Positions 5,044 to 44,505 of a stretch of 64,000 nucleotides of DNA are shown here, piece after piece; position 1 is the first letter of the stretch; every line of letters starts with the position of its first letter. The DNA comes from Liquorilactobacillus mali. GTDB lineage: Bacteria > Bacillota > Bacilli > Lactobacillales > Lactobacillaceae. The DNA is taken from assembly GCF_001437155.1 (NCBI RefSeq), contig NZ_JQAR01000001.1, positions 62,001 to 126,000 of the forward strand, in the 5' to 3' direction. The position numbers were made by a program, and so were the translations under genes. The notes under the pieces are model-generated. The model made no database searches, was not told where the DNA came from, and was given only the letters and a program-made list of their open reading frames with translations.

Positions 5044-6003
5044 ATGGACAAAAAATTGATTGGTGTTGATTTGGGCGGTACAACAATCAAGTTTGCAATT
5101 TTAACTGAAAAGGGTGAAATTCAACAAAAATGGAGCTTTGAAACCAATATTCTTGATGATGGAGCACACATTGTTCCAGATATAGTTGAGTCTATCAATC
5201 ATCACCTGAATTTATATGGTATGGAACCTGAACAGTTTCTTGGTATTGGTATGGGATCCCCAGGAACAGTTGATTTAGAAGCAGGAACTGTGACAGGTGC
5301 GTATAATCTTAATTGGAAAACCTTGCAAGAAGTAAAAAAGGTTGTCGAAGAGGAGACAAAGATACCTTTTGCTATTGATAATGATGCGAACGTTGCTGCT
5401 TTAGGTGAGCAATGGAAGGGTGCAGGCGAAAATGATAAAGAAGTTGCGTTTATCACGTTAGGAACAGGCGTCGGTGGCGGATTAGTTTCTAATGGGGAAC
5501 TTCTTCATGGACTTGGAGCAGCGGGTGAAATTGGACATATGGTTGTACAGCCAAATGGATATTTGTGTACCTGCGGTAATCAAGGATGTTTAGAGACATA
5601 TGCCTCAGCAACTGGTGTTGTTCGGGTTGCACGCGATCTTGCGGAAGAATTTGCGGGAGATTCCAAATTGAAGAGCGCATTAGATGACGGGCAGGAGATT
5701 ACATCTAAGATTGTGTTTGACTTGGCGAAAGAAGATGATCTTCTCGGCAAGATGGTCGTTGATCGTGTCTGTTACTACTTGGGTTTGGCTTCTGGTAATA
5801 TTGGAAACTTATTGAATCCTTCAGCTATTATTATTGGTGGCGGGGTTTCTGCGGCTGGAGTATTTTTATTAAGTCGTGTGGAAAAATATTTTCTGGAATT
5901 TGCTTTCCCAACAGTTAGAAAATCTACCAAACTTAAATTAGCACAATTAGGAAACGAGGCTGGTGTTATTGGTGCTGCTTCGTTAGCATTACGTTTCAAA
6001 TAA
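5044..6003 (+). CDS. glcK: Glucokinase, ROK family
   Basis: This enzyme phosphorylates glucose to glucose 6-phosphate with ATP for glycolysis. The 319-residue protein opens with the phosphate-binding motif DLGGTTIKF, and has the catalytic acidic region IDNDANVAALGEQ, the EIGH metal motif and the ROK zinc cluster CTCGNQGCLE. The start at 5044 has GGAGGG 7 bases upstream. An in-frame TTG at 5029 would place the ribosome site inside the gene and is rejected. The neighbours yqgQ and yqhL support the assignment. Confidence 0.96.
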   Translation: MDKKLIGVDLGGTTIKFAILTEKGEIQQKWSFETNILDDGAHIVPDIVESINHHLNLYGMEPEQFLGIGMGSPGTVDLEAGTVTGAYNLNWKTLQEVKKVVEEETKIPFAIDNDANVAALGEQWKGAGENDKEVAFITLGTGVGGGLVSNGELLHGLGAAGEIGHMVVQPNGYLCTCGNQGCLETYASATGVVRVARDLAEEFAGDSKLKSALDDGQEITSKIVFDLAKEDDLLGKMVVDRVCYYLGLASGNIGNLLNPSAIIIGGGVSAAGVFLLSRVEKYFLEFAFPTVRKSTKLKLAQLGNEAGVIGAASLALRFK

Positions 6004-35578: not shown

Positions 35579-37012
35579 GTGGCATTTGAAGGATTAACAG
35601 AGCGACTTCAGAATGCAATCAGCAAGTTGCGGAAAAAAGGTAAGATCAGTGAAGCTGATGTACGAGAAGTCATGCGTGAAATTAGGCTTGCATTACTCGA
35701 AGCCGATGTAAATTTCCAAGTGGTAAAAGATTTCGTTAAGACAGTTAGAACTCGTGCGATCGGTGCAGAGGTTCTAGAGAGCTTAACTCCTGCGCAACAA
35801 ATTGTAAAAATCGTTAATGATGAACTAACCAAAGTCATGGGCGAGGAAGCTGTCGAATTAAATAAATCAGACAAGATTCCAACGATCATTATGATGGTTG
35901 GTCTCCAAGGTGCTGGTAAGACAACTACATTAGGTAAATTAGCTTTAAAGTTAAAGAATGAAAAGAAAGCTCGTCCGTTAATGATTGCTGCGGATGTTTA
36001 CAGACCCGCTGCGATTGATCAGCTGGAAATATTGGGTAAGAGTATTGATGTACCTGTCTTTTCAATGGGAACTGATGTTTCACCAGTTGAAATTGTCAGA
36101 AAAGGGCTAGAATTAGCTGCTGAGAAGAAAAATGATTATGTGTTGATCGATACTGCTGGTCGTTTGCAAATTGATGAATTATTGATGGATGAACTTGCTC
36201 AAATCAAGACATTGGCACAACCAGATGAAATCTTATTGACAGTTGATGCAATGACAGGGCAAAATGCAGTTGAAGTTGCCAAAGGTTTCAATGAACAATT
36301 GGATGTTACAGGTGTTGTATTGACCAAGTTAGATGGTGATACACGTGGTGGTGCTGCATTATCAATTCGTGCGGTTACCGGCAAGCCTATTAAGTTCATT
36401 GGTCAAGGTGAGAAAATGACTGATTTGGATGTATTTTATCCAGATAGAATGTCATCACGTATCTTAGGAATGGGTGACATGCTGACCTTGATTGAAAAGG
36501 CGCAGCAAGATTTCGATGAGAAAAAAGCTCAACAAATGCAAGAAAAGATGCGTGAGAACAGTTTTGACTTCAATGATTTTATTGATCAAATGGAGCAAGT
36601 TCAAAAAATGGGGCCAATGGAAGATATCATAAAGATGATTCCTGGGATGGCAAATAATCCTGCAATTAAAAATTTAAAAGTTGACCCTAAAGACATTGAG
36701 CATCTTAAAGCTGTTGTATATTCAATGACTAACGAGGAACGCGAAAATCCAGATCTATTCAATCCTAGCCGGAGAAAAAGAATTGCTGCCGGCTCAGGTC
36801 GTCCAATTCATGAAGTTAACAGAATGATTAAACAATTTAACGAGATGAAGAAGATGATGGGGAAGGTTTCTAAGGGAAACTTTGAAGGCATGGAAGGTAT
36901 GTTTGGCAATGGTTTATCTGGTAAACTTGCAAAAATGTCAATGAATTCTATGGCACGAAAGAATAAGAAGCGCAAACTTAAGCGTTTGAAGAATAAAAAA
37001 CGCAGGAAATAA
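35579..37012 (+). CDS. ffh: Signal recognition particle protein Ffh
   Basis: Ffh binds signal peptides and 4.5S/6S RNA. The 477-residue protein has the N domain, the G domain (GLQGAGKTTTLGKLA, DTAGRLQ, TKLDGDTRGGAAL, GQGEKMTDL) and a Met-rich M domain (about 300-450) ending in a very basic tail rich in Lys and Arg. The start is GTG at 35579, 16 bases after ylxM. Confidence 0.97.
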   Translation: MAFEGLTERLQNAISKLRKKGKISEADVREVMREIRLALLEADVNFQVVKDFVKTVRTRAIGAEVLESLTPAQQIVKIVNDELTKVMGEEAVELNKSDKIPTIIMMVGLQGAGKTTTLGKLALKLKNEKKARPLMIAADVYRPAAIDQLEILGKSIDVPVFSMGTDVSPVEIVRKGLELAAEKKNDYVLIDTAGRLQIDELLMDELAQIKTLAQPDEILLTVDAMTGQNAVEVAKGFNEQLDVTGVVLTKLDGDTRGGAALSIRAVTGKPIKFIGQGEKMTDLDVFYPDRMSSRILGMGDMLTLIEKAQQDFDEKKAQQMQEKMRENSFDFNDFIDQMEQVQKMGPMEDIIKMIPGMANNPAIKNLKVDPKDIEHLKAVVYSMTNEERENPDLFNPSRRKRIAAGSGRPIHEVNRMIKQFNEMKKMMGKVSKGNFEGMEGMFGNGLSGKLAKMSMNSMARKNKKRKLKRLKNKKRRK

Positions 37013-37041
37013 ATTTTTTTGTATCTGTCAAGAAATAATCC

Positions 37042-37070
37042 TTTACACCAAGCCAAAATACTGTTATATT
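37042..37070 (+). promoter_or_regulatory. Sigma-A promoter of rpsP
   Basis: TTTACA (37042-37047), a 17-base spacer and TGTTATATT (37062-37070, an extended -10), 36 bases before rpsP. Confidence 0.85.
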
Positions 37071-37105
37071 ATTAACGTTAAGAAAGTTAATAGGAGGTGT
37101 AGTTA

Positions 37106-37378
37106 ATGTCAGTTAAAATTCGTTTAAAACGTATGGGTTCTAAAAAGCGTCCATTTTACCGTATCGTTGTTGCAGATTCACGTTCACCACGTGATGGTCG
37201 TTTCATCGAAACAGTTGGAACATACAATCCATTAACAGAACCTGAAAGTGTTACACTTAAGGAAGAAAATATTTTGAACTGGTTGAGCAATGGAGCACAA
37301 CCTTCAGATACAGTACGTAATATTCTTTCAAAGAATGGTGTCATGAAGAAGTTCCATGATGCAAAATTCAGTAAATAA
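37106..37378 (+). CDS. rpsP: 30S ribosomal protein S16
   Basis: A 90-residue protein starting [20 protein letters not shown] with [11 protein letters not shown], the S16 pattern. It binds 16S rRNA early in 30S assembly. The ribosome site AGGAGG is strong. It leads the rpsP-rimM-trmD-rplS order common to bacteria. Confidence 0.98.
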
Positions 37379-37499
37379 TAAGACTTATTGCATATAAAAA
37401 GACCCTTAATTGTAATCTTAACTTATGTGCTTTGATAGTTGAATATTTGTAATAATTGGCTATACTGTATGTTTGATTAAGAATTGTATATAATTAGTG

Positions 37500-37552
37500 A
37501 ATCCCTTTAGATGAAGCAGTGATGTTTTATTTGGGGGATTTTCTTTTTTAAA
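37500..37552 (+). promoter_or_regulatory. Candidate attenuator hairpin between rpsP and rimM
   Basis: AATCCC (37500-37505 region) and GGGATT near 37540 can form a short stem followed by TTCTTTTTT, just before the rimM ribosome site. A TATAAT sits at 37489-37494 just upstream without a clear -35. The stem is only 6 bp with a large loop, so the call is tentative. Confidence 0.4.
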
Positions 37553-37563
37553 GAGGTGGAAGA

Positions 37564-38073
37564 ATGAGTTTTTATGAAGTAGGACAGATTATTAACACTC
37601 ACGGAATACATGGTGAGGTAAAAATTAAAATAATTACTGACTTTCCAGATGAACGCTTCAAAAAGGGCAAAATGTTATATCTACTATTGCCTGATAGGGA
37701 ACTTGTACTGAAAATTATAGCTGTCCGTAAAGTAAAACAATTTTATTTATTAACATTTGAGAATTATCAGGATATAAACCTAGTTGAGAAATTCAAGGGA
37801 TTTAAATTGGCAGTTAAAGAAGAACAACAAAAAAAATTAGCTGATAACAACTTTTATCATCATGAAATAATTGGATTGAAAGTATTTGATGAGGAAAACA
37901 ATGAAATAGGAGAAGTTAGTGAAGTCATGAGTTTAGGTGCTAATGATGTTTGGAGCGTTAAAAGAGTTGGGAAAAAGGACCTACTTTTACCTGCAATTCA
38001 TGATGTTATAAAAAAGGTCGATATTGCAAATGGAAGCATAATCGTCGATGTGTTAGATGGGTTGGATGATTAA
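37564..38073 (+). CDS. rimM: 16S rRNA processing protein RimM
   Basis: RimM binds S19 and helps mature the 30S head. The 169-residue protein has an N-terminal beta-barrel ([14 protein letters not shown]) and a C-terminal PRC-barrel ([31 protein letters not shown]). Its stop overlaps the trmD start by one base (TAATG). The ribosome site is GAGGTGG. Confidence 0.95.
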
Positions 38074-38810
38074 TGAAAATCGATATTTTAAGTTTATTTC
38101 CGGAAATGTTCAAGGGCCCCTTGGAATCATCCATTGTGGGTAAGGCAATTGAAAGTAAAATCATAGATGTCGACATTACAAACTACCGTGATTTTACAAG
38201 CAATAAGCAGCACCATGTTGATGATTATCCGTATGGCGGTGGTGCTGGAATGTTATTACAAGCGCAGCCAATCTTTGATGCCTTGGATTATGTTGAGAAG
38301 AAGAGCGACGGATTGGGAAGTGTTATTTTACTTGATCCGGCAGGAAGACAATTTAATCAAAAAGTGGCAGAAGAGCTATCTGCAAAAGATCATCTAACAT
38401 TTATTTGTGGCCATTATGAGGGTTACGATGAGAGAATTAGGAAGAGAGTCACTGATGAAATTTCATTGGGAGACTATGTTCTAACTGGTGGAGAACTTGG
38501 CGCAATGGTAATAATCGATGCTACTGCCAGGCTATTACAGGGTACCTTAGGGAATAAGGATTCTGCACCGGGAGACTCATTTTCAAGTGGTTTGTTGGAG
38601 TATCCTCAGTATACGAGACCAGTCTCATATAGGGGGATGGATGTTCCTGAGGTACTTGTTAGCGGTAATCATCAAAAGATTGCGCAGTGGCGAGAATATG
38701 AGTCCTTGAGACGAACATTTTTACGAAGACCAGATTTGCTTGCGAAACTAGAATTAACCGAACAACAAAAAATAATGTTGGATGAAATAAGGAGCAACAC
38801 TAGAAAATAA
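38073..38810 (+). CDS. trmD: tRNA (guanine-37-N1) methyltransferase
   Basis: TrmD methylates G37 of tRNAs and prevents frameshifting. The 245-residue SPOUT enzyme has the deep trefoil-knot motifs [26 protein letters not shown] and [13 protein letters not shown]. It is translationally coupled to rimM. Confidence 0.97.
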
Positions 38811-38814
38811 GCAC

Positions 38815-38843
38815 TTGATAATTATTTTACGGTATGATAATAT
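38815..38843 (+). promoter_or_regulatory. Probable promoter of rplS
   Basis: TTGATA (38815-38820), a 17-base spacer and TAATAT (38838-38843). The -10 is only moderate. Confidence 0.55.
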
Positions 38844-38845
38844 TG

Positions 38846-38918
38846 TGAGTGGCTATGCGCCATATTAACAATATTCCGCTGTTGAAAGACAAGAATGTTG
38901 GCGAAAGGAAGAAACAAG
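38846..38918 (+). ncRNA. Candidate L19 leader (rplS 5' UTR)
   Basis: The roughly 70-base leader before rplS contains GTGGCTATGCGCCAT-type pairing and a conserved-looking GACAAGAATGTTGGCG segment ending at the ribosome site. Firmicutes are known to carry an autoregulatory L19 leader here. I place it by position and look, not by a model match. Confidence 0.4.
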
Positions 38919-39266
38919 ATGAACCCATTAATCAAAAAAATTACGGAGTCTCAATTACGTAGTGATATTCCAGATTTCCGCCCTGGTGATACTGTTCGTG
39001 TCCACGCTCGTATCGTTGAAGGTACTCGTGAACGTATCCAGATTTTCGAAGGTGTAGTTATCAAACGTCGTGGTGAAGGTATCAGCGAAACTTATACAGT
39101 TCGTAAGATTAGTAGTGGTATTGGTGTTGAACGTACATTCCCAGTCCACACACCACGTGTTGAGAAGATTGAAGTAATTCGTCAAGGACGTGTACGTCGT
39201 GCTAAGTTATATTACTTGCGTGCATTACATGGTAAAGCAGCTCGTATTCCTGAAAGACGTCGTTAA
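38919..39266 (+). CDS. rplS: 50S ribosomal protein L19
   Basis: A 115-residue protein ([20 protein letters not shown], then [17 protein letters not shown] and [13 protein letters not shown]) of the L19 family, located at the 30S-50S interface. The start is ATG at 38919 with AAGGAAG upstream; an in-frame TTG at 38895 has no such site and adds residues foreign to the family. Confidence 0.98.
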
Positions 39267-39276
39267 TATAACGTTC

Positions 39277-39307
39277 AAAAAGCCTTGTTTATCAAGGCTT
39301 TTTTTGT
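39277..39307 (+). terminator. Terminator of rplS
   Basis: AAAGCCTTG-TTTAT-CAAGGCTTT with a T run of seven. Confidence 0.95.
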
Positions 39308-39515
39308 TTTACAATATTATATTTTTCTTACTTAAAAGGGCGAGGAAGATCACTAAGAGATACATCATGGAAGAGGCACATGCTTGACCTGAAATTGCTG
39401 CTGAGATAACGATAATTACATAAATTATTTATTTATTGGTTGTATAAGTATGAAAGGATATATGCGTACAGAAGTACTAAAGTGGTGATTGCTTCTGACT
39501 CCTAGACATATAATC

Positions 39516-39920
39516 TTATAGTGTATTGATCAAAAAACGAACACGATTTTCTAAATGTGCTGGAATTGCGTATTTTTGCATAAAAGATACTACATTTATT
39601 TTGTTGTAAGGAGTCTGACTATATAAATGAAAAATGATCTGAAGAGCATAATCGTTGACATAGGATTCAATTTTAAACTTTTGTGCAGGGGTACGATTGT
39701 ATAAGCGAAGGTCAAGCGGATCGCCATAGATTAGATGGGCCAACTCATGAGCTAATTGAAAAATAAATTGATTAGGATTATGCCAATTTGAATTCATGAT
39801 AATGCATCTTAAATTATAAACAGCAACTGGCGGAGTCGTAGGGGAAAGTTCTTGCGTCCAAATAATTCTAATATGCTCTTTTTTTGCCAACTCTAATAAC
39901 TTCTCCAATACTGCATACAC
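39516..39920 (-). CDS. ImmA/IrrE family metallo-endopeptidase
   Basis: A 134-residue protein with the zinc protease motif HELAH at residues 58-62, followed by an acidic and helical C-terminal part. In ICEBs1 and many prophages such a protease (ImmA) cleaves the element's repressor after DNA damage or a peptide signal. Here it is encoded 5 bases after the XRE repressor gene in the same direction, the usual pairing. The start is GTG at 39920 in the reading MYAVLEKLL. No integrase, relaxase or phage structural gene is nearby, so it is an isolated module or relic. Confidence 0.85.
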   Translation of the reverse strand: MYAVLEKLLELAKKEHIRIIWTQELSPTTPPVAVYNLRCIIMNSNWHNPNQFIFQLAHELAHLIYGDPLDLRLYNRTPAQKFKIESYVNDYALQIIFHLYSQTPYNKINVVSFMQKYAIPAHLENRVRFLINTL

Positions 39921-39925
39921 CTCAC

Positions 39926-40246
39926 TTATTTTGAAGGCTTATTTCGCAATAGATGACGAATTATTTCTAGTTCATCTTCTGGGATTGCTTTTCCTTCAAA
40001 TGTAAGTACGCCATCGGGTACGATTGCTAAATCAATTTTGTTTATATTTTTTTCAGAAGCTCGCCCAGTCAAATAATCTAAAGAAACACCAAAATAATCG
40101 GCGACTTTTTTAACACGCTCGATAGAAGGAATGCGATGCGACCACTGATAGATAGTATTTCTACCAAAGCCTAATGTTTCTTCAAGTTCGTAAATAGACA
40201 TATTTCTTTCTTTAGCAAGTTGTTTGATTACTTCCAATGTATTCAT
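39926..40246 (-). CDS. XRE family transcriptional repressor (phage/ICE immunity type)
   Basis: A 106-residue protein with an N-terminal lambda-repressor-like HTH (about 4-62; SIYELEETLGFGRNTIYQWS with VADYFGVSLDYLTGR) and a short C-terminal part that would be the target of an ImmA protease. The likely operators are CTAAC-N6-GTTAG sites at 40271-40286 and 40301-40316 in the divergent promoter region. It is read as a repressor of the divergent HTH gene and probably of itself. This role is inference from layout. Confidence 0.88.
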   Translation of the reverse strand: MNTLEVIKQLAKERNMSIYELEETLGFGRNTIYQWSHRIPSIERVKKVADYFGVSLDYLTGRASEKNINKIDLAIVPDGVLTFEGKAIPEDELEIIRHLLRNKPSK

Positions 40247-40270
40247 TTTAAAACTCCTACTAGATTTTTT

Positions 40271-40286
40271 ATAACTAAAAAGTTAG
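40271..40286. promoter_or_regulatory. Second repressor operator, near the XRE gene start
   Basis: The 16 bases here match the perfect operator at 40301-40316 at 12 of 16 positions and are exactly 30 bp away, about three helical turns. The core TAACT-AAAA-AGTTA is itself palindromic. Confidence 0.65.
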
Positions 40287-40293
40287 AAAAATA

Positions 40294-40322
40294 TTGAAAT
40301 CTAACGTATAAGTTAGTATAAT
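40294..40322 (+). promoter_or_regulatory. Promoter of the divergent HTH gene with operator in its spacer
   Basis: TTGAAA (40294-40299), a 17-base spacer and a perfect TATAAT (40317-40322). The spacer contains the perfect palindrome CTAAC-GTATAA-GTTAG (40301-40316), so repressor binding would exclude RNA polymerase. Confidence 0.85.
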
Positions 40323-40463
40323 TTACCTAATAACATTATGAAAAAAATGAAACAATATTAAGTTAAGGAAAATTATTTTGATATTACTGGGTTGATTCTA
40401 TAATAAGATTCGGTAGTCGTCAAATAAATTAGGTAATTTATTAACGAATTGGAGTGGGGTAAA

Positions 40464-40658
40464 GTGAAATATGATCTTACAGATGCAATATTATTGGGTC
40501 TAAAAAGAAATAAGCGAATGAAATTAAAACCAAGTTCACAGTCTGATATAGCTGCTCATTTTGGCCTTTCTAAACCATATGTAAACCAATTGATTAACGG
40601 AAGGGTTGCACCAACAGAGAATACTGATGAATGGATCAGAAAATTTGTTTGTATGTAG
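40464..40658 (+). CDS. Small helix-turn-helix protein, Cro-like by position
   Basis: A 64-residue protein with an HTH (SDIAAHFGLSKPYVNQLING). It is divergent from the XRE repressor and driven by the operator-covered promoter, the place of cro, xis or an antirepressor in phages and ICEs. The start is GTG at 40464 with GGAGTGGGG just upstream; the in-frame TTG at 40449 lies inside that site. The leader of about 135 bases between promoter and gene is long and contains only a 7-codon ATG frame at 40337. Confidence 0.75.
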   Translation: MKYDLTDAILLGLKRNKRMKLKPSSQSDIAAHFGLSKPYVNQLINGRVAPTENTDEWIRKFVCM

Positions 40659-40755
40659 GAGTGGGATCTTAATACCATAAACTGAAGGCTTGCCAGCCGT
40701 CAATTCAAACTAAGAAGATTTACTAACAGAGTTTATATAAAGAAGAAAGGGCGGC

Positions 40756-40806
40756 ATGAGTCGGCAAAATAGCCGGCAAAATCCGGTTACGAATGCAAAA
40801 TTATGA
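40756..40806 (+). CDS. Tiny ORF with SRQN tandem repeat (16 codons), unproven
   Basis: MSRQNSRQNPVTNAKL, preceded by AAGAAAGGG 5 bases away. The repeat SRQN-SRQN comes from a 12-bp DNA repeat, AGYCGGCAAAAT twice (40759-40782). It may be a peptide, an uORF, or a gene remnant; no function is proposed. Confidence 0.3.
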   Translation: MSRQNSRQNPVTNAKL

Positions 40807-40824
40807 ACATAGGAGTTATTTGTA

Positions 40825-40857
40825 ATGAGTAATTCAGTGTTAGACTCAGAGTTTTAA
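40825..40857 (+). CDS. Tiny ORF (10 codons), unproven
   Basis: MSNSVLDSEF, with AGGAG 9 bases before the ATG. It lies 18 bases after the previous tiny frame and before the terminator. The frame is so short that chance cannot be excluded. Confidence 0.25.
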   Translation: MSNSVLDSEF

Positions 40858-40883
40858 CTTATTGAGCATAATTTATAAAAAAT

Positions 40884-40931
40884 AAAAAAGGAACCAAGTC
40901 AAAAGTTAAATTTTGAGCTGGTTCTTTTTTT
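40884..40931. terminator. Bidirectional terminator between the HTH island and DUF4044
   Basis: A long stem (GGAACCAAGTCAAAA with TTTTGAGCTGGTTC, a few mismatches) has A6 before and T7 after, so it can serve the plus-strand island transcript and the minus-strand DUF4044 gene. Confidence 0.85.
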
Positions 40932-40969
40932 ATGAATTGAAGTTAGCTATTGTCGTAAAATTTAGTTGA

Positions 40970-41089
40970 TTAGTATCCTATTACTGAGAAGATTGCACTC
41001 AGAACGATAGTCCCTACAGTAACAATAATCATCAGCCAAACAACTACCATTGTAATTTTTTGGAAACGTGTTTTCTTCTTCTTTGGCAC
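40970..41089 (-). CDS. DUF4044 family small membrane protein
   Basis: A 39-residue protein, MPKKKKTRFQKITMVVVWLM followed by a hydrophobic stretch to VIGY. The basic N-terminus and single membrane helix match DUF4044 of lactobacilli, a family of unknown function. The start is GTG at 41089 with AAAGGTGA upstream and a consensus promoter. A longer antisense frame over the same DNA has no family likeness. Confidence 0.8.
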   Translation of the reverse strand: MPKKKKTRFQKITMVVVWLMIIVTVGTIVLSAIFSVIGY

Positions 41090-41124
41090 AACAAAATTCA
41101 CCTTTCGTATAAGCTTTACAATAT

Positions 41125-41153
41125 ACTATACTTTTTACTGTGAATTGTGTCAA
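41125..41153 (-). promoter_or_regulatory. Sigma-A promoter of the DUF4044 gene
   Basis: On the minus strand: a perfect TTGACA (41148-41153), a 17-base spacer and TATAGT (41125-41130). Confidence 0.88.
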
Positions 41154-41199
41154 ATAGACTTTATCAGAAACTTTGTATGCAAAGTCTTTCTAAAACAAA

Positions 41200-41228
41200 T
41201 TGAATTTGTATAAACTAACAATTATAAT
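41200..41228 (+). promoter_or_regulatory. Sigma-A promoter of the aspartokinase gene
   Basis: TTGAAT (41200-41205), a 17-base spacer and a perfect TATAAT (41223-41228). The leader of about 80 bases shows neither a lysine riboswitch nor a T-box. Confidence 0.82.
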
Positions 41229-41312
41229 TGAATGAGTAAATATAGTAATAAAATTTCATTTATTTATAATTTAAATAACGAAATAAACTGAAACGGAATG
41301 GAGTAAAAAGTA

Positions 41313-42512
41313 ATGGAAATTATGGTACAGAAGTTTGGCGGAACATCGGTTCAGGATGATAAGGCGCGACATAAGGCACTAGAACATGTGCGTTATGCCT
41401 TAGAAAAGGGATATAAGGTTGTTGTTGTTGTTTCTGCAATCGGAAGAAAAGGGGCACCCTACGCAACTGATTCACTCTTGAATCTTGTAGATGCGGATCA
41501 AACAAGCTTGTCAGCACGTGAATTGGATATGATTGTTTCGGTTGGTGAGATTATTTCGACCGCCGTATTTACACAACTGTTGAAAAAAGAGGGTATCTCT
41601 GCAACAGCAATGACTGGTCCAGATGCAGGATTTAGAACTAATAATGATTATCAAAATGCTAAGGTTTTGGATGTAAAAACTGACAATATTAATAAGGCTT
41701 TTTCCGAAAACGATGTTGTCGTAGTAGCTGGTTTTCAGGGGCTATCAAGAGATGGTCATATGGCAACTCTGGGAAGAGGAGGCAGTGACACCTCTGCAGC
41801 ACTTTTGGGGGCAGCACTTTCAGCCAAAAGAGTTGATATCTTTACTGATGTTTCTGGGATGATGACTGGTGATCCTAGACTCGTGAAGAAAGCTAAATTT
41901 TTGAAAAACGTGAGTTACGAGGAAGTTGCTAATATGGCACATGAAGGGGCAAAGGTTATTCACCCACGCGCCGTTGAAATTGCGCAGCAAGCTCATGTTC
42001 CTTTAAGGATTCGTTCAACTTGGGACGGAGTGGATGAGTTAGGAACATTAATCTCAGATAAAAACCTTGCCTTACAAGACTATCGTGGTGTTACGGGGAT
42101 TGCCCATCAAGTTGGGCTGACACAATTCAGTGTTTTGACAGAGAACCTTTCGGCTGATCAAGTATTTAATTTGTTAGCAGATAATCATTTAAGCGTGGAC
42201 TTTATTAATATTTTGCCTGAAAAAGTTGTTTTCAACTTAGACCATGAGGAGTCTCAGGTAGCTAAGAAATTACTGCAGAATAAAAACATCACTTATACTT
42301 TAGTAGAAAATTGTGCTAAGGTGTCAATTGTAGGTGCAGGTATTATGGGGACACCTGGAATAGCGGCAAAAATTGTAACTGCACTTTCCAAGCATAATAT
42401 CGAAATTTTGCAAACAACAGATAGTTACACAACCATTTGGGTACTGGTTAAAGCAGCAGATTTAGAAGTAGCGGTAAATGCCTTGCATGATACTTTTTTA
42501 CTGCGAGATTAG
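41313..42512 (+). CDS. dapG: Aspartate kinase, DapG-like
   Basis: This enzyme phosphorylates aspartate, the first step toward diaminopimelate, lysine, threonine and methionine. The 399-residue protein has the KFGGTSV motif, SAIGRKGAPYATDSLL (very like Bacillus DapG), RGGSDTSAALLG and DVSGMMTGDPR. Two ACT domains follow (about 265-399) for feedback control. With dapF and a DAP-type murE in the window it probably supplies peptidoglycan DAP. GGAG lies about 9 bases before the ATG. Confidence 0.93.
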   Translation: MEIMVQKFGGTSVQDDKARHKALEHVRYALEKGYKVVVVVSAIGRKGAPYATDSLLNLVDADQTSLSARELDMIVSVGEIISTAVFTQLLKKEGISATAMTGPDAGFRTNNDYQNAKVLDVKTDNINKAFSENDVVVVAGFQGLSRDGHMATLGRGGSDTSAALLGAALSAKRVDIFTDVSGMMTGDPRLVKKAKFLKNVSYEEVANMAHEGAKVIHPRAVEIAQQAHVPLRIRSTWDGVDELGTLISDKNLALQDYRGVTGIAHQVGLTQFSVLTENLSADQVFNLLADNHLSVDFINILPEKVVFNLDHEESQVAKKLLQNKNITYTLVENCAKVSIVGAGIMGTPGIAAKIVTALSKHNIEILQTTDSYTTIWVLVKAADLEVAVNALHDTFLLRD

Positions 42513-42530
42513 GAAGTATGGGTGATTAAG

Positions 42531-42872
42531 ATGGTTTGGTACCACCAATTGCTACTGATTGTGCTAGTATTTTTGTTTTTAGTAATCTTGAAGAAGTTTT
42601 TACCTAAGAAACTACGAAAAAAAATGAGAATTTCTAGTTTAATGATTATTCCTGTGCTGTATTGTATTTTTATGACCTCATTAACGAAATTGGAATTGTC
42701 GGTGATTCCATTCTTATTTTTTGGGTTAGGCCTGCTGGGAATTATGATGACACTGGTATATGCATATGTTGAAGGTGAGATAATTTACCGTGTTTTTTTC
42801 AAATCATATTTTCTTTTTTGTGCGCTTGCAGTATATGGGGTATTTGTTCCACTATTTATCCTTAGTATATAA
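42531..42872 (+). CDS. Small integral membrane protein, probable DUF3397
   Basis: A 113-residue protein with four hydrophobic segments and a basic loop (KKFLPKKLRKKMR) after the first. DUF3397 proteins of this length lie just before mraZ in lactobacilli, which is the main reason for the call; the function is unknown. The ATG at 42531 follows GGGTGAT; the GTG at 42522 with AGGAAG is a possible alternative that adds three residues. Confidence 0.7.
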   Translation: MVWYHQLLLIVLVFLFLVILKKFLPKKLRKKMRISSLMIIPVLYCIFMTSLTKLELSVIPFLFFGLGLLGIMMTLVYAYVEGEIIYRVFFKSYFLFCALAVYGVFVPLFILSI

Positions 42873-42886
42873 ACTTATTTTTTCCA

Positions 42887-42926
42887 AAAGCTGTCTCAGA
42901 CTTAATTGTTTGGGATGGCTTTTTTA
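42887..42926 (+). terminator. Terminator before mraZ
   Basis: AAAAGCTGTCTCA pairs with TTGGGATGGCTTTT (some G-U pairs), followed by T. It separates the dapG unit from the dcw cluster. Confidence 0.85.
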
Positions 42927-43040
42927 GTGCGTTGATGTATTTGAAGAAAAAAGCCTAAGTATTCAAGGTTTTGGACCATTAAGAAGTCGCTTTTGGACTT
43001 GAAAAAAGAATTTAATAATTAAGTGGTAATTTATGGGTGA

Positions 43041-43070
43041 AAAAGTGGTGTGAAGTGGTGAAATGTGGTA
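43041..43070 (+). promoter_or_regulatory. MraZ operator: three 10-bp direct repeats
   Basis: AAAAGTGGTG, TGAAGTGGTG and AAATGTGGTA follow one another exactly every 10 bases (GTGG in each), about 40 bases before mraZ. Related GTGG copies occur at 43023 and ATGGTAGTG at 43081. MraZ rings bind such 10-bp-spaced repeats and repress the dcw operon. Confidence 0.75.
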
Positions 43071-43107
43071 GTATCAAAATATGGTAGTGTCAAGGGAGGT
43101 GTCTTAC

Positions 43108-43539
43108 ATGTTTATGGGCGAATATCGACACGCAATTGATGAGAAGGGCCGATTAATTATTCCTTCAAAATTTCGTGAAGATTTAGGTGAAGTCTTTGTA
43201 ATAACACGTGGAATGGATGGATGTCTGTTCGGATATCCTGAATCAGAATGGAATATCTTACAGGAAAAATTGCAAAAACTCCCACTTACTAAAAAAGATG
43301 CTCGTTCATTTGTAAGATTTTTTTACTCCGCAGCTACTGAATGTGAGTTCGATAAACAAGGAAGAGTAAGTATCCCAAAGTCACTTCGAAGTCATGCATC
43401 ACTTGAAAAAAAGTGTGTTGTTGTAGGTGTCTCAAACAGATTTGAAATATGGTCTGAAGCACGTTGGGATGACTTCTCGACTGAGGCAGAAACAAACTTT
43501 GATGAAATTGCCGAAAATATGATTGATTTTGGTCTTTAA
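43108..43539 (+). CDS. mraZ: Transcriptional regulator MraZ
   Basis: A 143-residue, ring-forming DNA-binding protein that controls the dcw cluster. Two AbrB-like halves are visible: [20 protein letters not shown] and [20 protein letters not shown]. The start is ATG at 43108 with GGGAGGTG upstream, giving the usual family length; the in-frame ATG at 43081 is rejected. Confidence 0.96.
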
Positions 43540-43554
43540 TAATGGAGGATTAAC

Positions 43555-44505
43555 GTGGCAGATTTTGAACATACAACCGTTTTATTGCATGAAGCGGTAG
43601 AGGGATTAGCAATTAAACAAGACGGTATCTACGTTGACTGTACCTTGGGTGGCGGTGGACATAGTGGGCTAATCGTGTCTAAGCTGTCTGAAGAGGGACA
43701 TCTTATATCCTTTGATCAAGACCAAACTGCAATTACATACAATGAGGATAGATTTAAAGATGACTTAGCTTCTGGAAAGATTACGTTTGTGAAATCAAAT
43801 TTCAGATTTTTAAGTACAAAACTATTGGAAAAGGGCATCACTAGCGTAGATGGAATTTTATATGACTTAGGAGTTTCGTCACCGCAATTTGATAATGCAG
43901 ATCGCGGATTCAGTTATCGATATGATTCTAAGCTTGATATGCGCATGGATCAAACACAGAATTTGACCGCTGAGAAGATTGTCAATGAATGGCCATACGA
44001 AAAATTAGTTCGTATTTTCTTTAGATATGGTGAAGAAAAATACGCCAAATCAATTGCACGAAGAATTGAAAAGGAAAGACAAATTGCACTAATTGAAACC
44101 ACCGGTCAACTAGTTGAATTGATAAAAGAGTCAATTCCTGCTAGAGCAAGACGTACCGGTGGACATCCAGCAAAAAAAGTTTTTCAGGCGATTAGGATAG
44201 CTGTCAATGATGAACTTGGGGCATTGGAACAATCATTAGAAGAAGCCTTAGAATTGATTAATGTTGGTGGAAGAATCAGTGTTATTACATTTCAATCGCT
44301 TGAAGATCGTCTAGTTAAGTCGATGTTCAAGGAAAAGAGTGAAGTACAAGACTTGCCGCAAGGTTTACCGGTGATACCTGATGAGTTTCAACCAAAGTTT
44401 AAGCTAGTGTCACGAAAACCAATTCTACCGAGTGAAGAGGAACTACTGAATAATCACCGAGCACATTCTGCAAAATTAAGAGTGATTGAAAGAATAAAAA
44501 GATAA
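43555..44505 (+). CDS. rsmH: 16S rRNA (cytosine-1402-N4) methyltransferase
   Basis: RsmH methylates N4 of C1402 in the ribosomal P site. The 316-residue protein has [13 protein letters not shown], the SAM motif [31 protein letters not shown] and [15 protein letters not shown]. The start is GTG at 43555 with GGAGGA upstream. It is the second gene of the dcw cluster, as usual. Confidence 0.97.

Follow-up and report, generated by a model that had tools for sequence, protein, structure and literature searches.

Small XRE repressors followed by an HEXXH metalloprotease of the M78 family are described as ImmR/ImmA of ICEBs1 in Bacillus subtilis and as immRA of TnSmu1 in Streptococcus mutans, where repressor cleavage on DNA damage is the proposed release (PMC8960796, PMC10233336). 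ImmA is reported to cleave ImmR in its C-terminal part, and damage to release the element (PMC8960796). Repressors are likewise paired with M78-type proteases in CapH/CapP of CBASS and in DdrO/IrrE of Deinococcus (PMC10233336, PMC10904395). MpaR of the Listeria monocin locus, a phage-derived bacteriocin locus, is described as a metalloprotease anti-repressor that acts on CI-like repressors and also controls a separate prophage, so that a metalloprotease of a phage-derived locus acts on another prophage (PMC6872733). In E. coli, the repressor of the cryptic Rac prophage, RacR, controls the adjacent small genes ydaS and ydaT, and no metalloprotease partner is named in the portions of the two reports drawn on here (PMC5700373, PMC5700377).

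A window of 64,000 nucleotides from Liquorilactobacillus mali (the whole stretch analysed, taken from a genome of 2.44 Mb in 78 contigs) was found to contain a locus of this kind. In it, rep is followed directly by immA (5-bp gap), in the order XRE repressor then M78 HEXXH protease of an ImmR/ImmA-type module, and the pair faces a small gene, cro (Table 1). Whereas ICEBs1 and TnSmu1 are ICEs with integrase and transfer genes, the window locus has no element, and cro is the sole gene found under the facing promoter. The Rac prophage survives as a larger remnant. The monocin locus is described as encoding phage-tail-like particles (PMC6872733), unlike the window locus, for which a partner prophage with the same operator was not found; neither was a CBASS gene or a repair regulon seen beside the switch, in contrast to CapH/CapP and DdrO/IrrE. 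The locus probably goes back to an ancient temperate phage, integrated at the rplS 3' end in the Liquorilactobacillus ancestor, whose three-gene immunity switch has been kept as a core chromosomal locus. The finding is no artefact and is partly new: the kind of module is known (ImmR/ImmA-type lysogeny control), but the element is gone and the circuit is fixed in the genus genomes searched. The locus was not found reported in the titles and abstract beginnings of open-access literature on Liquorilactobacillus prophages or on ImmA and its repressor.

Table 1. Features of the switch locus and its neighbours in the window.
Feature	Position	Strand	Description	Basis
rplS	38919..39266	+	left neighbour	
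Empty attachment site	39219..39268	+	rplS 3' end, duplicated around the G011 prophage	50 bp, one mismatch in G011
immA	39516..39920	-	M78 metalloprotease, 134 aa, GTG start, HELAH	ORF, Pfam, 14-genome alignment
rep	39926..40246	-	XRE repressor, 106 aa	ORF, Pfam, 14-genome comparison
O2	40271..40286	.	12/16 copy of O1, 30 bp upstream, core TAAC-N6-GTTA	
Pcro	40294..40322	+	TTGAAA (40294-40299), 17-bp spacer, TATAAT (40317-40322)	
O1	40301..40316	.	candidate operator CTAACGTATAAGTTAG, 14/16 symmetric, in Pcro spacer	
Prep	40395..40423	-	proposed promoter facing Pcro, TTGACG (40423-40418), 17 bp, TAGAAT (40400-40395)	
O3	40423..40442	.	dyad AATAAATTAGGTAATTTATT, 18/20 symmetric, at Prep -35; proposed Cro or weak Rep site	
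cro	40464..40658	+	Cro-like HTH protein, 64 aa, GTG start	ORF, Pfam, relatives
DUF4044 gene	40970..41101	-	right neighbour, convergent with cro	

Genes were called from open reading frames, Pfam and relatives. Rep matched Pfam HTH_3 (E 2.7e-10) and ImmA matched Peptidase_M78 (E 1.1e-6, 28.8 bits against a cut-off of 22), while the match of Cro to HTH_3 was weak (20.7 bits, under the cut-off of 23); the initial annotation of an XRE repressor and an ImmA-type protease facing a small HTH gene was confirmed at this strength. The start of cro was judged from relatives to be GTG 40464 and not TTG 40449. At its other end, the final codons of the window cro (40640-40658) are in another frame, ending FVCM, compared with the other 13 genomes; this looks like one base missing from a run of A, either a natural change or a sequencing error. 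An AlphaFold2 model of ImmA (pLDDT 86.8) was aligned structurally with a M. tuberculosis regulator (Z 8.7), IrrE (8.2), CapP (7.9) and PprI (7.7); other zinc proteases gave Z from 6.8, so the margin of IrrE and CapP is small. The M. tuberculosis regulator holds an M78/IrrE-type domain. Foldseek with the same model gave no match at E <=0.001, and a sequence search of the PDB gave two matches for ImmA (E about 0.04) and two for Rep. Nothing scored above cut-off in an NCBIfam scan; Rfam on 38800-41400 returned an L19 leader under threshold and otherwise weak matches. A PADLOC scan of the three proteins themselves gave weak matches to capH (5e-5) and capP (0.0095), and the neighbours of the switch are rplS, DUF4044 and dapG, with no CBASS cyclase or effector.

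The open reading frames of window positions 36000-44500 comprised trmD, rplS, immA/rep/cro, DUF4044, dapG and other host genes (host names partly by eye), and no integrase, relaxase, structural, replication or transfer gene was among them. Nineteen phage query proteins from five elements, four integrases included, reached a best E of 0.06 in 28 flanking stretches of the 14 Liquorilactobacillus genomes compared; that sole weak match, to a 70-aa protein in G011, had been considered as an integrase remnant beside the switch and was disregarded. Both searches bear out the absence of integrase, relaxase and structural genes nearby that had been noted at the outset. With neither an integrase nor structural, replication or transfer genes, the window locus is not an intact prophage or ICE.

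The promoter region was then compared across the 14 genomes. A consensus promoter with a 17-base spacer, a perfect 16-bp palindrome within it and a 12/16 copy exactly 30 bp away had been claimed from the sequence; the promoter (TTGAAA-17-TATAAT) and the copy, which lies upstream, were found as claimed, but the palindrome falls short of perfection in the window and is perfect in 2/14 genomes (G004 and G007). Pcro reads TTGA(AA/TT)-17-TATAAT with O1 in its spacer in 14/14 genomes, and in each of them the facing Prep, TTGAC(G/T)-17/18-TANNAT, follows. The O1 half CTAAC is present in 13/14 genomes and GTTAG in 14/14; the left arm is altered in G009, leaving 10/16 symmetric positions. The centre of O2 lies 30-32 bp upstream of that of O1. 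The O2 core is unchanged in 11 of the 14 genomes, carries a single change in G010 and has three changes each in G004 and G007; O2 with <=1 change was found in 12/14. Symmetry of O3 ranged from 14 to 18 of 20 positions across the 14 genomes. Much of the DNA between Pcro and Prep has diverged among the genomes. Because it is placed in a promoter and conserved there, the O1 motif is taken to be more than chance.

Retention was assessed over the rplS-dapG interval, whose presence or absence in relatives the initial annotation had proposed to compare. A Rep search recovered the locus in 14/14 genus genomes, with ImmA, Cro, DUF4044 and DapG adjoining Rep in every one; full rplS stands on the other side of the switch in 11, a prophage lies between in G006 and G011, and a contig ends there in G003. 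Eight records named Liquorilactobacillus or Lactobacillus also contain the locus, and among them L. mali KCTC 3596 comes nearest (Rep 97% identical). G010 is the most compact, with 50 bp between rplS and immA and 55 bp between cro and DUF4044, and the conserved unit is therefore the three genes with their control region. Residues H58, E59, H62 and E85 of ImmA (HE-x2-H plus E85), the recognition helix NTIYQW and hinge EGK of Rep, and 14 consecutive residues of Cro (FGLSKPYVNQLING) were unchanged in all 14. Simple Nei-Gojobori counts gave dN/dS of 0.025-0.099 for Rep (9 pairs), 0.025-0.118 for Cro (9 pairs) and 0.097-0.129 for ImmA (5/9 pairs with finite dS; the other four had infinite dS and no ratio); these ratios are rough because dS exceeded 1 in many pairs and the counts are simple. 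Cro frames took in a few codons before the likely start, and RplS rows with G006 and G011 were dropped (short wrong frame; the true rplS is beyond the prophage). Pairwise distances tracked those of DapG (r 0.73 for Rep, 0.82 for ImmA and 0.71 for Cro; 0/2000 permutations each). Mean distance was 0.55 for ImmA, 0.37 for Rep and 0.28 for Cro, so that ImmA evolves faster and Cro has changed least of the three. When 38 repressors were placed in a tree, the 14 genus Reps stood alone under one branch (support 91/86; bootstrap not settled). Presence in 14/14, low dN/dS, invariant residues, DapG-tracking distances and the single Rep branch together argue for vertical inheritance under selection: with the same flanks throughout, the switch appears immobile and vertically inherited, and the rough dN/dS values indicate purifying selection.

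Several variable features were seen around the locus. Two small genes (about 102 and 100 aa) outside any Pfam family lie beside immA on the rplS side in G001, G003, G012 and G013 (L033, L035, L044, L045), and in G001 a transposase-like ORF (by eye) also lies between rplS and immA. An asparagine synthetase-like gene (by eye) stands between DUF4044 and dapG in six genomes (L033, L035, L040, L041, L044, L045) and is absent from the window. G003 (E 6e-29) and G013 (E 1e-30) each have a second, stand-alone Cro paralogue, and G001 has a broken one (L114 5875-6090, L116 175-438, L115 about 5586-5993); no Rep or ImmA was seen near these copies, whose surroundings include a GNAT-like gene and a gene for a small membrane protein (by eye). 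Between cro and DUF4044, at about 40750-40935, the window has, in diverged form, a repeat about 140 bp long that is dispersed through intergenic DNA and often ends in a terminator-like hairpin (core ATGAGTAATTC-N4-TTAGAC-N3-GAGTTTT; loci L126-L155). Copies with <=1 mismatch in the core numbered 63 in G009, 39 in G011, 14 in G003, 13 in G005, 12 in G012, one each in G000, G006 and G013 and 0 in six genomes, the reversed control giving 0 in 14/14. An ORF after cro, MSNSVLDSEF, was rejected as a conserved peptide since it sits in the diverged copy of this repeat.

The rplS 3' end was examined as a prophage site. In G011 a 39,010-bp prophage lies between rplS and the intact switch. A second copy of the rplS end, identical over 32 bp and, past a single mismatch, over a further 17 bp, adjoins immA at a distance of 39,010 bp from the first; the integrase of the insert adjoins rplS and an endolysin gene is near its other end. 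Its own repressor is of a different helix class, and an operator like O1 was absent by eye. G006 carries a broken-off prophage: a 388-codon ORF after rplS looks by eye like the G011 integrase, 45 bp of the rplS end recur next to immA, and a contig break lies between. These two inserts mark the rplS 3' end as a site that prophages use; the window shows the site empty. It is likewise described as the site of a prophage (GBS3) in Group B Streptococcus (PMC7487436), and in S. pyogenes a prophage is placed between gph and rplS (PMC8115907). The sign of a simple deletion relic, as named beforehand, was to be the presence of integration genes at this position in close relatives. G006 and G011 do have such genes, but as parts of prophages lying between rplS and the intact switch, the one in G011 with its different repressor, so that the window locus is not a simple recent deletion.

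Complete elements of matching layout were found outside the genus. In G235 (L119) and G264 (L120), from another genus of the family, rplS is followed by an integrase (PHROG 1), further genes, ImmA, Rep and a facing Cro, and then by phage genes; the rplS end is masked in G235, and of the two copies in G264 one (L120) has the order rplS, int, ImmA, Rep / Cro. For G235 and G264, respectively, the proteins are identical to those of the window at 36 and 47% of positions (Rep), 28 and 38% (ImmA) and 42 and 47% (Cro). Enterococcus phoeniculicola (L055) has rplS, int, ImmA-like, Rep and Cro-like genes in the same order; Rep alone matches the window by sequence (41%), the ImmA-like and Cro-like genes being named by motif and place. 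The rplS integrases of G011, G235, G264 and L055 are 37-64% identical to each other. Among 287 family genomes outside the genus (an even draw from a larger group), a Cro profile at E 1e-8 found four, each with Cro beside a Rep homologue; two are at rplS and the other places are phage-like regions by eye. The Rep/Cro pair was also seen in phage-like regions away from rplS (L121 in G264, L117 in G101, L118 in G149), and the module is therefore found with different integration sites. The lysogeny modules at rplS in L119, L120 and L055 share place, gene order and orientation with the window locus; unlike it, these elements keep integrase and phage genes and are sporadic, whereas the window locus is fixed in the genus genomes searched. 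The same genes in the same order at rplS, beside integrases and recombination genes in G235 and G264, point to derivation from a phage, and by this comparison the window locus appears to be the arm of an rplS element, less the integrase and other phage genes. Of the earlier description as the control core of an ICE or phage, the phage part stands, with a prophage at the rplS 3' end as source; an ICE core was rejected, as the nearest relatives with the same order adjoin phage genes.

Phage databases were searched with the same proteins. Rep was matched by 386 of 50,697 INPHARED phage records, and Cro by L. casei phage PLE2 only (two records; 50% over 38 aa, E 1e-4), whose Rep match is 41% identical. 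Unlike the window locus, PLE2 is a whole phage that carries integrase, lysin and replication genes; between its integrase and those at rplS, identity is only 24-26%. In Aerococcus agrisoli, an element carries the operator of the window in the corresponding promoter spacer (TTGACA-A-CTAACTAATAAGTTAG-TAATAT), and elements of E. pallens and E. phoeniculicola carry the O1 right half. Recognition helix and operator were compared in 80 IMG/VR sequences, the best of 484 related to Rep. Within these 80, a spacer ending GTTAG precedes 12/18 repressors with the helix NTIYQW against 0/62 others; collapsed at 90% identity, the GTTAG promoter accompanies 5/8 against 0/37, with a Fisher p of 5e-5 that is a guide only because phages are related by descent. 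The latter count leaves out the three loci that suggested the pattern and becomes 7/10 against 0/37 with them (15/21 against 0/62 uncollapsed); a narrower class, [RKH]NTIYQW, gave 14/15 against 1/68. The three exceptions among the eight non-redundant NTIYQW repressors are L170, L172 and L186. This helix-operator association is the best support for O1 as the probable cognate site of Rep. No phage with the full O1 operator and -10 was found in IMG/VR, and of 86 stretches there that fitted the Cro profile pattern none was confirmed.

The comparison shows that the locus came from a phage at this place, was inherited vertically with low dN/dS and kept its promoters, and that operator and recognition helix are associated in phages; binding, cleavage, signal, bistability and role are proposed. 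After loss of the integrase and other phage genes, the rep/immA/cro decision circuit would have been retained. Rep would bind O1 and O2 and hold cro off, while Prep, some 60 bp from Pcro and facing it, would make rep-immA. On a signal, probably DNA damage, ImmA would cut Rep, perhaps near the EGK hinge; Pcro would then fire, and Cro, probably at O3, would shut Prep, latching the state. The working of Rep, ImmA and Cro is proposed by analogy with ImmR/ImmA. Counted against this explanation were the fast evolution of ImmA, the 3/8 NTIYQW exceptions, the Rep-only match in E. phoeniculicola, the altered end of the window cro and the different repressor class of the G011 rplS prophage.

As to role, releasable immunity against phages using the same operator is the most likely candidate, advanced tentatively. 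It is preferred because Rep keeps a phage-type specificity and no chromosomal site beyond its own locus stood out. No phage of the genus is known to be held off, as no IMG/VR phage or resident prophage with the operator was found: a resident prophage sharing the operator, one of the checks first suggested, was not seen in the 14 genomes, nor was any resident prophage seen using the O1 promoter. A second Rep match (E 1e-18), present in 0/14 genus genomes and 86/287 other family genomes, was not counted as support for immunity; it hardly bears on O1 because several of the other-family Reps inspected have another recognition helix. Against this role, conservation of Cro and ImmA is not something that immunity by itself would require. 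A conceivable, somewhat more speculative reading is that a bistable device which stands alone and regulates itself has been retained for as long as the genus has existed, as a domesticated lysis-lysogeny switch of very small size serving for releasable immunity or as a one-bit damage memory: a complete phage decision circuit with two facing promoters, whose operators would occur nowhere else in the genome and which would carry no cargo.

Control of chromosomal genes by Rep and/or Cro through sites unlike O1-O3, which would make the locus a cell stress switch, is a less likely role but the foremost rival. It would fit Cro being the most conserved of the three proteins with its invariant 14-residue block, the kept zinc-site residues of ImmA and the lack of a known phage target in the genus. 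The genome searches, made with the O1 and O3 patterns, speak against it. O1 with <=1 mismatch was found at the locus in 13/14 genomes (not G009) and at nine off-locus places in the 14 genomes, all inside mechanical ORFs; one, in G010, lies near the start of an ORF. Reversed controls gave no fewer, and an O1 operator regulon was rejected on this count. CTAAC-N6-GTTAG, for which a genome-wide search had been suggested, gave 2 forward matches against 4 for the reversed control, so that no enrichment was seen. The O1-promoter pattern recovered the locus in 13/14 genomes (G010, with TTGATT, was missed) and two imperfect off-locus matches, and the strict O3 pattern the locus in five genomes, with three one-mismatch sites elsewhere.

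An addiction or regulatory trap, in which Cro freed from repression would damage the cell, so that Rep becomes indispensable and the module stays although it brings no advantage, is improbable. It would account for Rep in 14/14 genomes and has precedents in essential repressors of cryptic prophages: RacR with YdaS/YdaT in E. coli is reported as such a trap (PMC5700373, PMC5700377), although a letter disputes that YdaS/YdaT are toxins (PMC5917428). In TnSmu1, immR is reported as impossible to delete (PMC10233336). Deletion of the whole module would free the cell, yet 0/14 genomes have done so, and the low dN/dS of Cro itself is unexpected for a mere burden.

The two remaining accounts are very improbable. 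Repeated independent insertion of related phages at rplS, in place of one ancestral event, would suit the use of rplS in G006, G011, E. phoeniculicola, G235 and G264, but is opposed by the DapG-tracking distances of all three proteins, the single branch of the 14 Reps and the identical gene content and flanks. A decaying relic, a prophage arm surviving by chance without function, would explain the missing phage genes and the altered cro end and is largely disfavoured by full-length genes in 14/14 genomes at dN/dS near 0.1 or below, set against the diverged DNA between the promoters. The initial alternative of a relic or a domesticated switch was right in outline, the evidence (14/14 genomes, dN/dS about 0.03-0.13, promoters and operator kept) favouring retention and not decay.

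Tail, lysis, capsid or recombinase genes are the best-known cases of domesticated prophage parts. At this locus the decision circuit alone appears to have been kept, with its promoters and operators and with nothing obvious left to decide. The locus offers a natural test case for a phage repressor serving as immunity, a Cro rewired to the host, or a bistable switch useful by itself. The rplS 3' end is established as a prophage site in Liquorilactobacillus, and the pair of recognition helix and operator may help to predict repressor specificity in related phages.
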